From assembly GCA_017547885.1 (NCBI GenBank), contig JAFYOP010000004.1, positions 445,312 to 509,311 of the forward strand: a stretch of 64,000 bases of DNA, in the 5' to 3' direction. The translations under genes were made by a program, and so were the position numbers. The notes beneath the pieces are model-generated. The model worked only from the letters and a program-made list of their open reading frames with translations. It was not told the origin of the DNA and searched no databases. Of this stretch, positions 28,274 to 45,959 are shown piece by piece. The stretch is from Clostridia bacterium (GTDB lineage: Bacteria > Bacillota > Clostridia > Christensenellales > CAG-138). Numbering within the stretch: position 1 is the first letter of the stretch; the number at the start of each line of letters is the position of its first letter.

Positions 28274-28330
28274 TTGACGGCGAAGCAAAAGAGCGGTATC
28301 ATTGACATGAACACAACTGAATAAAATACA

Positions 28331-28560
28331 TCTTTGGGTTCCGTGGGCATGGCCCATGGTCAACAGGGGAATGGAAGTGAGATTCTTCCGCGAGGCCGTC
28401 ACTGTGAAAGGGAAAACCACCCTCAAGTCAGAATACCTGCCCAAAGAGCCCTGCAAGGAGCTGCGGAACCCCGGCCGATTTGTATAAAGCTGGCAGATGA
28501 TCTGCCCGGTCTCTCTTTTTCTTTGCATGGCATGGTTGTGCAAAAAAAGAAAAGGAGAGA
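28331..28560 (+). ncRNA. cobalamin riboswitch
   Basis: The aptamer is closed by TCTTTGGG (28331-28338) with CCCAAAGA (28440-28447). Inside are the conserved strands GGGAATGGAAGTGAGATTC-like (from 28367), GCCGTCACTGTGA and the B12-box-like AAGTCAGAATACCTGCC (28424-28440). Downstream, CTCTCTTTTTCTTT (28511-28524) pairs with AAAGAAAAGGAGAG (28546-28559) and hides the Shine-Dalgarno, so control is probably at translation start: B12 bound means off. It precedes a DUF4430 protein and an ECF S component. Confidence 0.9.
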
Positions 28561-42831: not shown

Positions 42832-44055
42832 ATGAATAACGAAAAAACCTTTGCAAAGAATTACGCTGCCCTGCGTTGGGGCTACCTTGTGCTCTGCACC
42901 CTCCTGCTGCTGTTTCTGGGGCTTATTTATGCATGGTCTGTATTCCGTATACCCCTTGAAACAGAATTCGGCTGGACGCCCTCACAGGCCTCTCTGGTGT
43001 TTTCTGTAAGCATGATGCTGTTCTGCCTTGGCGGCCTTGCGTCCGGCATGCTGCAGAAAAAATTCAGCATCAGGATAACCGTAATCTGCAGCGCCCTGTG
43101 CATGCTGGCGGGCTTTTGCGCCGCTTCCATGGCAAAGGGACTGCTGGGCATCTGCTGCACATATAGCCTGCTGTGCGGTCTTGGTGTAGGCTTGGGCTAC
43201 AATTCCTGCCTCAGCGTGGTAATGTCCTGGTTCCCCGATAAAAAGGGACTGGTATCCGGCATAGCGCTAATGGGCTTTGGCTTTGGCGGCATGGTGTTCG
43301 GTACATTGAGCGCAAACCTTATAGGCTCCATTGGCTGGCGCAAAACCTTCCTGGTTTTCGGCTTTGTGTTCTTTGCGGTAATTCTTATAGGCGCCTTTAT
43401 CCTTAAGGTCGCTCCGTCCGAGTTTGCCGCGAAAATGGCAGCGGGCAGCAAGGCAAAGGCATCCCTCAGGGAAATGGAGTGGAAGCAGATGATCAAATGC
43501 CGTCAGTTCTGGCTGTATTTTGCATGGGCCATCATACTTTCTGCGGCAGGCCTTGCGGTAATGAATGAGGCCGCATCCTTCGCCCAGTGCTTTGTGGGAG
43601 AGAACCTTGCCCGTGCGGCTGCCCTTGCAGGTATGGTGTCCATAGCAAACGGTGTGGGCCGCATAATATTCGGCCAGCTGTTTGACAGGATAGGCTACCG
43701 CAAAACAATGCTGGGCGTGTGCGGCATGTTTATCTGCGCATCCGCAGCTCTGCTCCTTGCCAACAGTACCATGAGCATCCCTGTGCTGGCGGCGGGCTTT
43801 ATTCTGCTTGGCCTTGCCTATGGCGGAGTTACCCCCACAAATTCGGCGTACGCTTCTTATTTCTTCGGCACTAAGAACTACGCTTTTAACTTCAGCCTTG
43901 TAAATCTTAACCTTATTATTGCCTCATATCTTGGGCCTGCCTGTGGCAGCCTCTCATATGCGGGCACATTCCTCGTAATACTTGCCTTTGGTGTAATGGG
44001 TGTATTCATAAGCCTTGCCATAAGGGAATATAAGGAAACCGCTGTACAGGCGTAA
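42832..44055 (+). CDS. MFS transporter, OxlT/OFA-like
   Basis: Twelve membrane helices in 407 residues; RWGYLVLCTLLLLFLGLIYAWSVF at the start and GLGVGLGYNSCLS near residue 115 are typical of the oxalate/formate antiporter branch. It is of the same branch as the carrier at 2020 but only distantly alike, so not a recent duplicate. ATG follows CGGAGAAGC, 22 bases after the methyltransferase gene. Substrate unknown. Confidence 0.88.
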   Translation: MNNEKTFAKNYAALRWGYLVLCTLLLLFLGLIYAWSVFRIPLETEFGWTPSQASLVFSVSMMLFCLGGLASGMLQKKFSIRITVICSALCMLAGFCAASMAKGLLGICCTYSLLCGLGVGLGYNSCLSVVMSWFPDKKGLVSGIALMGFGFGGMVFGTLSANLIGSIGWRKTFLVFGFVFFAVILIGAFILKVAPSEFAAKMAAGSKAKASLREMEWKQMIKCRQFWLYFAWAIILSAAGLAVMNEAASFAQCFVGENLARAAALAGMVSIANGVGRIIFGQLFDRIGYRKTMLGVCGMFICASAALLLANSTMSIPVLAAGFILLGLAYGGVTPTNSAYASYFFGTKNYAFNFSLVNLNLIIASYLGPACGSLSYAGTFLVILAFGVMGVFISLAIREYKETAVQA

Positions 44056-44104: not shown

Positions 44105-45550
44105 TTATAAACTATCACCAAAGTCCCTGCGGAACGCAGCCGCAAGCTGTTCCTGCCAGTCGCTGTCCGCCTCCAGCTTACCGAAGAAAAAGCGGAGTGT
44201 TCCGGGTTCTTCCACCCAGCGAAGGCCGCCGATAAGGTGGCGGTTTTTAAACAACCACTCAATGCGGTCAACGGCGTACATGACCTGAGACAGGGTAAAT
44301 ACCCTGCGGGGCATGGCAAGGCGTACCAGCTCCATGGCTGCCATGGGTTCTGTGCCGTCTGGCTCACGCTGTTCCGAGAGGGTGCCGCGCTCCATGCCGC
44401 GGATGCCGCCTGCGATGTATATTGCTGCCGCAAGGGCGCCGGCAGGGTACTGATTGCCCTGAAGATGGGGAAGGAACTCGCGGGCGTTCAGATGGCAGCC
44501 AAGGCCGCCTGCGGGCGTTACAACCGGTATACCGCGCTTGATGAGTTCATCCGTCATAAACCGGATAAACTGAGGGCCTTGGCTGATGATATCCTCATCC
44601 ATAGTTTCATCAAGACCAACGGTGATGGCTTCCATTTCACGGACGCTCATGCCGCCGTAGGTGAGGAAACCCTCAAACATGGGCACAAGTTCCATCATGC
44701 GGTCATTCAGTGCCTTGTCGCGCACACAGATGCCGCCGCCCCGGGCAAAGCCAAGCTTTCTGGCGGAAAAGTATACGATGTCAAAGCAGTCCGCAAGGGC
44801 ACGGGCGATCTCGCGGATGGACATATGGGCGCAGGCTGCCTCGCGTGTCTTTATGAAGTGGAGATTGTCCTGAAGGAGACTTGCGTCCAGTACGGTCAGG
44901 ATGCCGTTATCGTGTGCAAGCTTTGTGGCGACGCGGCAGTTTTCCAGGGAGAAGGGCTGACCGCCGATAAGGTTGGTGCCAGCCTCAAGGCGCAGGAATG
45001 CCATGTGGCCTTTATTGCGCTGTATGCATGACTGGAGCTTATCAAGGTCCATATTGCCCTTGAAAAGGCAGGAGCTTTGGGTATTGATGCCCTCGTCGCT
45101 TACCAGCTCCTCAACTGTGCCGCCGCATTGGGTGATGTGGGCCTTTGTGGTGGTAAAGTGGAAGTTCATTGCCACCACATCGCCGGGTTTTACAAAGGTT
45201 TTTGCAATGATGTGCTCTGCGGCTCTGCCCTGATGGGCGGGCAGGAAGAATTCCATGCCAAATATTTCCTTAAGCTTTGCATGGAGACGGTTGAATGTCT
45301 CACTTCCGGCGTATGCGTCGTCTGCTACCATCATGGCGGCAAGCTGATTGTCGCTCATGGCGTTTACGCCGCTGTCGGTAAGCATATCCATGAATACGTC
45401 ACGGTTCTGAAGCAGGAATGTATTGCAGCCGGCCTGCTTTATGGCAACGAGGCGCTGCTCCACCGGGGGAAGGTTAAGCTTCTGTACAATGCGTACTTTG
45501 TGCATTTCGAGGGGGATGTTTTCGCCGCTGAAGAATTTTACCTTGGTCAT
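44105..45550 (-). CDS. beta-eliminating lyase, tyrosine phenol-lyase/tryptophanase family (divergent)
   Basis: A 481-residue PLP enzyme. Family blocks are clear: KQAGCNTFLLQNRDVFMDML, LTDSGVNAMSD, HQGRAAEH, FHFTTTKAHI, ELVRLAMPRRVFT. The PLP lysine is in YFSARKLG near residue 258. As I recall, the family usually has DATRC and SxKKD; here they read DASLL and SARKL, so the Arg after Asp-Ala-Thr and the first Lys are changed. Substrate may therefore not be tyrosine or tryptophan. It has a T-box riboswitch and its own promoter. ATG follows GGAGG. Confidence 0.88.
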   Translation of the reverse strand: MTKVKFFSGENIPLEMHKVRIVQKLNLPPVEQRLVAIKQAGCNTFLLQNRDVFMDMLTDSGVNAMSDNQLAAMMVADDAYAGSETFNRLHAKLKEIFGMEFFLPAHQGRAAEHIIAKTFVKPGDVVAMNFHFTTTKAHITQCGGTVEELVSDEGINTQSSCLFKGNMDLDKLQSCIQRNKGHMAFLRLEAGTNLIGGQPFSLENCRVATKLAHDNGILTVLDASLLQDNLHFIKTREAACAHMSIREIARALADCFDIVYFSARKLGFARGGGICVRDKALNDRMMELVPMFEGFLTYGGMSVREMEAITVGLDETMDEDIISQGPQFIRFMTDELIKRGIPVVTPAGGLGCHLNAREFLPHLQGNQYPAGALAAAIYIAGGIRGMERGTLSEQREPDGTEPMAAMELVRLAMPRRVFTLSQVMYAVDRIEWLFKNRHLIGGLRWVEEPGTLRFFFGKLEADSDWQEQLAAAFRRDFGDSL

Positions 45551-45630
45551 TTTGAGCCTCCTAAAAATAAATAATTGATTTTCGGAGGTATCCTTTGGCG
45601 GCGATACCGGCCGATAAAATTATCGGGAAC

Positions 45631-45959
45631 AAAAAAGCCCGTCCCCTGACATGCAGAGGACGAGCGCCAAATCCCGTGTTACCACCTCAATTTATCCGGT
45701 TCTCGCGATACCGGACCTTTTCGAGTACCCTATGCGGACACAGCCGCCCTATACTCTATCACTGTAACGGGTGAATCCCGTCCCCGCCTACCGGTTGCCT
45801 TTCGGGGGGAGGCTGATGGCGTGTATTCCCAAGCGGCGGCCTGTTGACTTGCACCAACCGTCAACTCTCTGTAGGCTCCGTTCATGGTACTATTTCGCCG
45901 TCACGGCCTTTTCAATACCAATTGCGTTGAATTATATATTATGTGAATCGCATTGTCAA
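45631..45959 (-). ncRNA. T-box riboswitch (probable Tyr specifier) with promoter
   Basis: On the minus strand, TTGACA (45959-45954) and TATAAT (45936-45931) are 17 bases apart. Stem I has the distal AGAGAG...GGTTGGTGCAA signature and a specifier loop reading GAATACA between UGGG and CGCC; the codon is most simply UAC (45825-45823). The T-box core AGGTGGTAACACGGGAT (45687-45671) has UGGU, fitting a tRNA with discriminator A such as tRNA-Tyr. A terminator with six T follows (45665-45631). Uncharged tRNA should allow read-through into the lyase gene. Confidence 0.9.

Follow-up and report, generated by a model that had tools for sequence, protein, structure and literature searches.

A tyrosine-type T-box leader precedes a tyrosine phenol-lyase-like enzyme that may supply tyrosine

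A gene of the tyrosine phenol-lyase (TPL) family was found directly behind a T-box leader with the tyrosine specifier UAC, and since the UAC T-box recurs on orthologues of this lyase in many bacteria, the enzyme probably makes tyrosine. The reading that we favour, with slightly less than even confidence, is that the lyase subfamily supplies tyrosine under a tyrosine T-box, the likeliest reaction being tyrosine formation from phenol, pyruvate and ammonia (or serine); we infer both that the lyase forms tyrosine and that phenol is its precursor. T-boxes raise expression on starvation for the specified amino acid, and an enzyme that is made when tRNA-Tyr is uncharged should therefore supply tyrosine. 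An earlier note on this DNA had described the arrangement as reversed logic, which holds only when canonical TPL is the yardstick; if the enzyme forms tyrosine, this is the normal logic of a T-box.

The T-box leader and its specifier

The unit lies on the minus strand of the window, i.e. the whole 64,000-nt stretch of DNA that was analysed, in the order promoter, T-box, terminator and 481-codon lyase gene, and its extent was corrected to 45959-44105, so that the promoter is included. A sigma-70-type promoter (TTGACA, 17 nt, TATAAT; 45931..45959, minus strand) with 12 of 12 consensus bases was located by a scan. The leader was matched over its full length by the Rfam T-box model RF00230 at 45913-45653 (minus strand; cmscan), with 102 bits against a gathering score of 93 and an E-value of 2.4e-21. 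The modelling that had been proposed earlier for fixing the specifier placed UAC (Tyr), within GAA-UAC-A, at 45825-45823 (minus strand); the Rfam alignment position, 12 aligned lyase leaders and the register of trpB T-boxes agreed with the earlier reading of GAATACA as UAC. The UGGU of the T-box bulge, also noted before, was located at 45684-45681 (minus strand) by sequence and Rfam alignment, and its predicted partner is the tRNA acceptor end ACCA (discriminator A). An intrinsic terminator stem was detected by scanning and folding at 45665-45637 (minus strand), with a TTTTTT tail at 45636-45631, a free energy of -26.4 kcal/mol and a z of -3.65, and none of 200 shuffled sequences was equally good. 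The leader thus combined a score above the gathering value, a specifier followed by a purine, a UGGN bulge and a competing terminator. No tRNA gene was detected within the 64,000-nt window.

The register of the specifier was determined by comparison with nine T-boxes that precede trpB or trpB2 in genomes which also carry the lyase (G000, G131, G192, G200, G202, G203, G210 with two, and G212), in which GAA (or AAA) was followed directly by UGG and then by a purine. Tryptophan has no codon but UGG, so these leaders fix the frame; applied to the lyase leader this frame yields UAC and then A, and a one-base shift to ACA (Thr) was thereby settled against. It is scarcely credible that the lyase is an ordinary family member with a chance T-box or a misread specifier: only the possible one-base register error spoke for this, and the UGG register of the trpB T-boxes, the UAC found in 19 of 19 leaders and the full-length covariance-model match all spoke against it. 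In the alignment of 12 lyase leaders GAAUAC was invariant and the neighbouring stems were variable. RNAalifold predicted 42 pairs, some of which span distant regions and look spurious, and 16 of the 42 showed changes on both sides with pairing preserved; most of these 16 fall in the hairpin that precedes the T-box sequence, and a few are in stem I and the terminator. By covariance model, codon register and terminator folding, the leader is a tyrosine-specific, terminator-type T-box.

Other RNA elements were observed as well. A second T-box, with an apparent UUC (Phe) specifier in place of UAC, was present at L063:6150-6386, downstream of the lyase and ahead of a gene for an amino acid binding protein of the branched-chain type. 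In the window, a cobalamin riboswitch (28319-28458, plus strand, 47 bits) lies upstream of a small exported protein, which we take to be possibly of the DUF4430 kind.

Family, fold and active site of the lyase

The lyase (481 aa; ORF at 44105..45550, minus strand) belongs to the beta-eliminating lyase family, as had been claimed: it passed PF01212 with 157 bits (cut-off 27) and NF009709, the PRK13238 subfamily, with 550 bits (cut-off 285). The equivalog cut-offs were reached neither for TPL (TIGR02618, 408.9 vs 720.7 bits) nor for tryptophanase (TIGR02617, 302 vs 825.8 bits; NF053783, 354 vs 750 bits), and no aminotransferase family was matched at the thresholds used. A quick tree set the subfamily apart from TPL and tryptophanase on a separating branch 1.95 changes per site long (SH-aLRT 100). 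The predicted structure (AlphaFold, pLDDT 87.6) found TPL as its nearest fold, with Z 50.4 and an rmsd of 1.7 A over 444 residues; after TPL and tryptophanase came thiocysteine lyase and threonine aldolases, and this fold search gave no pointer to a different function. Judged by profile scores, tree and recurrence, the lyase is a member of a distinct, conserved subfamily of the TPL family that spans many phyla.

With TPL (EC 4.1.99.2; TIGR02618; structures 1tpl, 2ez1 and 1c7g) the lyase shares the fold (Z 50), about 38% identity, the catalytic residues K257, D214, Y71, R404 and N185 and the ring-binding residues T124, M379, R381, F448 and F449 (TPL numbering throughout). It differs in R217L, K256R, D258L, N262R, A181E and T183G, which are invariant or nearly so in the subfamily. 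In a residue survey of 90 subfamily sequences, T49, Y71, R100, F123, N185, D214, S254, K257, M379, R381, R404 and F449 were invariant, and T124 and F448 were found in 85; the remaining five sequences are divergent proteins of the home family. The residues by which TPL holds the ring (T124, M379, R381, F448, F449 and Y71) were thus kept in the lyase, and on the cofactor side R217, K256, D258 and N262 were all replaced. The changes A181E, T183G, T216S, R217L and K256R were invariant across the 90 sequences and N262R nearly so; position 258 was L in 76 of the 90 and otherwise I, F or M, and position 69 was D in most. The two altered blocks pointed out earlier proved to be a family signature: DASLL (residues 222-226; 44873..44887, minus strand) corresponds to TPL D214-C218, DATRC, with R217 changed to L, and SARKL (residues 262-266; 44753..44767, minus strand) corresponds to S254-D258, SGKKD, with the Schiff-base K257 kept and K256R and D258L substituted. 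D214, L217, S254, R256 and K257 were all invariant in the 90 sequences.

Five positions have been reported to separate phenol- from indole-lyases, namely T124, M288, M379, R381 and F448 (PMC5805759), and the lyase was of the phenol type at four of them, with F288 of the indole type. Tryptophanase (tryptophan indole-lyase) shares with it the family, the fold (Z about 48) and F at 288, but at 124, 379, 381 and 448 the lyase does not have the residues of an indole-lyase. Among the three options raised before, i.e. operation in the synthetic direction, another substrate or a new biosynthetic enzyme, the evidence favoured tyrosine supply; for those 85 of the 90 sequences that carry both T124 and F448, a wholly different substrate was argued against by the ring pocket, which was TPL-like at four of the five discriminating positions. 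The five exceptions (L096, L097, L098, L099 and L100) form a divergent home-family sister clade which keeps the cofactor-side signature, carries T124G and has F448 changed or lost; no T-box was found at these loci, and their residues suggest that they probably act on another substrate.

We take R217 to contact PLP O3' and E69 and N262 to lie at the monovalent-cation site of TPL. The replacement of R217, together with R262 and, in most sequences, D69, suggests altered cofactor tuning and cation use, and the changes to E181, G183, L217, R256 and R262 may have altered the type of reaction. No counterpart of this five-residue signature was present in the TPL or tryptophanase sequences compared, which fits a rival explanation that we consider distinctly improbable, namely that the lyase supplies tyrosine from another 4-hydroxyphenyl-type ring precursor or through an unforeseen PLP reaction; no adjoining gene indicates such a precursor, and the gene is mostly monocistronic. 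The main rival explanation, unlikely but to be taken seriously, is a tyrosine aminotransferase on the TPL scaffold, converting 4-hydroxyphenylpyruvate to tyrosine with the ring pocket kept and the cofactor side rebuilt. It would be compatible with the T-box and with an active site that is altered towards PLP and conserved around the ring, but the closest folds are all lyases, and Y71, the TPL acid that aids protonation of the ring carbon, is invariant, though it may also serve cofactor binding.

Recurrence of the T-box on lyase orthologues

A scan with one genome per species kept 80 relatives of the lyase, at 61-74% identity, from Bacillota, Pseudomonadota, Bacteroidota, Verrucomicrobiota, Fibrobacterota, Lentisphaerota, Planctomycetota and other phyla. 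A T-box was present upstream of the lyase at 15 of 33 named Bacillota/Mycoplasmatota loci and at 4 of 5 loci in the home order; the survey of the subfamily called for earlier therefore yielded 19 orthologues with a T-box, all with UAC. Of the TPL/tryptophanase-like homologues, 11 had upstream sequence long enough to judge, and all 11 were without a T-box (Fisher p 0.003, a statistic that ignores kinship). By sequence pattern, on which absence was judged, no T-box was found at about half of the Bacillota orthologues or at any outside Bacillota/Mycoplasmatota. The T-box label needed 10 changes on the protein tree, and the pairing of leader and lyase has therefore been kept or regained in several lineages.

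These results bore on whether the enzyme might be an ordinary TPL that degrades tyrosine, its T-box having been recruited for another reason, which was considered very improbable. Membership of the TPL sequence family and the TPL ring pocket would suit this explanation. A parallel would be the Enterococcus durans tyramine cluster, in which a tyrS-like gene transcribed mostly without tyrosine adjoins the tyrosine decarboxylase genes (PMC3315439); here the T-box lies directly upstream of the lyase itself, and does so in 19 orthologues. The lyase also scored 409 bits against a TPL cut-off of 721. In Erwinia and Citrobacter, canonical tpl is activated by tyrosine via TyrR (PMC1173090), whereas the lyase is predicted to be induced by T-box on lack of tyrosine; because canonical TPL is induced by tyrosine, degradation by the lyase is unlikely, and the earlier remark that ordinary tyrosine degradation fits poorly was upheld.

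Known Tyr-type RF00230 T-boxes, on tyrS, NhaC-type transporters and phenylalanine-4-hydroxylase of B. cereus, share UAC, UGGU and the terminator with the present leader; the difference is that the controlled gene here is a TPL-family enzyme. Control of phenylalanine-4-hydroxylase, an alternative tyrosine-forming enzyme, by a Tyr T-box in the B. cereus group (PMC2494555) provides a precedent. Searches of an open-access library for TPL or tryptophanase genes behind a T-box returned nothing relevant, and an earlier description may exist elsewhere.

Two further kinds of leader sequence were observed at lyase loci. Downstream of the T-box terminator at six Clostridia loci (L013, L024, L026, L039, L063 and L068), a short ORF that has a ribosome-binding site of its own opens 71-88 nt ahead of the lyase start; it encodes M-D-x-D and then Tyr residues (mostly YYY). 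At L026 this ORF is in frame with the lyase, and at the other five loci it runs across the lyase start in another frame. By its composition it is a possible second sensor of tyrosine, acting at translation. At six other loci (L014, L016, L019, L022, L031 and L044) a leader without a T-box, about 100-200 nt upstream, carries repeated GUAG / UGGNAGG motifs at its start and a terminator-like hairpin at its end. No related Rfam family was matched, and TRAP was rejected as the regulator, with MtrB in only 1 of 7 tested genomes without T-box leaders; the repeats suggest that this is possibly a new RNA or operator element.

Proposed tyrosine supply and host aromatic metabolism

Under the favoured reading of tyrosine supply, uncharged tRNA-Tyr would accumulate when tyrosine is low and pair with UAC and UGGU, the antiterminator would form and the monocistronic lyase would be made. 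The lyase would then form tyrosine by the synthetic direction of TPL, from phenol, pyruvate and ammonia, or from phenol and serine; as the ring pocket is of the phenol type and the acid Y71 of TPL is retained, TPL run in synthesis would be the simplest reaction. The enzyme would do for phenol and tyrosine what is done for indole and tryptophan by the standalone TrpB (indole and serine to tryptophan), which is under Trp T-box control in the same genome. Standalone TrpB/TrpB2 behind Trp T-boxes share the regulatory logic and the genomes with the lyase and would likewise turn a free aromatic ring back into an amino acid, but they have another PLP fold and use another ring. Phenol occurs in guts and digesters. 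A wider proposal, made with clear reservation, is that the subfamily is a 'tyrosine synthase' widely distributed in nature: derived from TPL and switched on by a tyrosine T-box, this PLP enzyme would convert free phenol back to tyrosine, and beside T-box-controlled standalone TrpB it would form a two-armed salvage of phenol and indole from neighbouring tyrosine- and tryptophan-degrading bacteria.

In the genome that carries the window (G000, 86% complete) and in G131 (94%), profile searches found chorismate synthase, and no TyrA, prephenate dehydratase (PheA) or TrpA above cut-off. Since neither TyrA nor prephenate dehydratase was found, the standard tyrosine route appears to be missing in both while the T-box-lyase unit is kept, and in its own genome the lyase may be the only route to tyrosine; the genome being incomplete, the absence of TyrA, PheA and TrpA there is not proof. 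In the aminotransferase explanation, 4-hydroxyphenylpyruvate would have to come from outside in these two genomes. On the other side, TyrA-family genes (PF02153), whose prephenate dehydrogenase members make 4-hydroxyphenylpyruvate, were present in 15 of 15 named lyase carriers tested, which also suits an aminotransferase. These matches ruled out replacement of TyrA as the general role of the lyase, and in most hosts it therefore adds to the standard route and does not replace it.

Both G000 and G131 carry TrpB without TrpA behind a UGG T-box (L185:1861-3105, i.e. G000:C28 about 350453-351968, for the former), and the home-family TrpB grouped with the extra, standalone TrpB of Rhodobacter relatives with 100/100 support. 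Among 296 Rhodobacteraceae genomes the lyase was found in 3 and standalone TrpB in 21, and all 3 lyase carriers were within the 21 (hypergeometric p 3e-4, a statistic that ignores kinship).

Proteins of the subfamily score as relatives of tryptophanase and TPL, and in gut and digester metagenomes they would naturally be counted as tyrosine or tryptophan degraders and producers of phenol or indole. If the subfamily makes tyrosine, such predictions therefore have the wrong sign for it. If true, natural phenol-to-tyrosine salvage would be an added route to an amino acid, would explain how TyrA-less genomes might manage without imported tyrosine and would make it easy to test whether the specificity of a riboswitch can tell in which direction an enzyme works.

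Genes for phenol synthesis or uptake were not found beside the lyase. Conserved operon partners were rejected, with almost none seen and the gene mostly monocistronic; the one telling partner was DAHP synthase at L033:1054-3342, which follows the lyase on the same strand, with a UAC T-box about 430 nt upstream. The neighbours GroES, DUF1015, a glycosyltransferase and a polyprenyl synthase, several named by reading the sequence, look local. In the window, a divergent gene for an iron-dependent alcohol dehydrogenase lies upstream of the lyase, and an MFS transporter of the L-lactate/oxalate-formate type is convergent to it downstream (42832-44055), as was also observed at L055:7525-8898 and L064:7539-8822.
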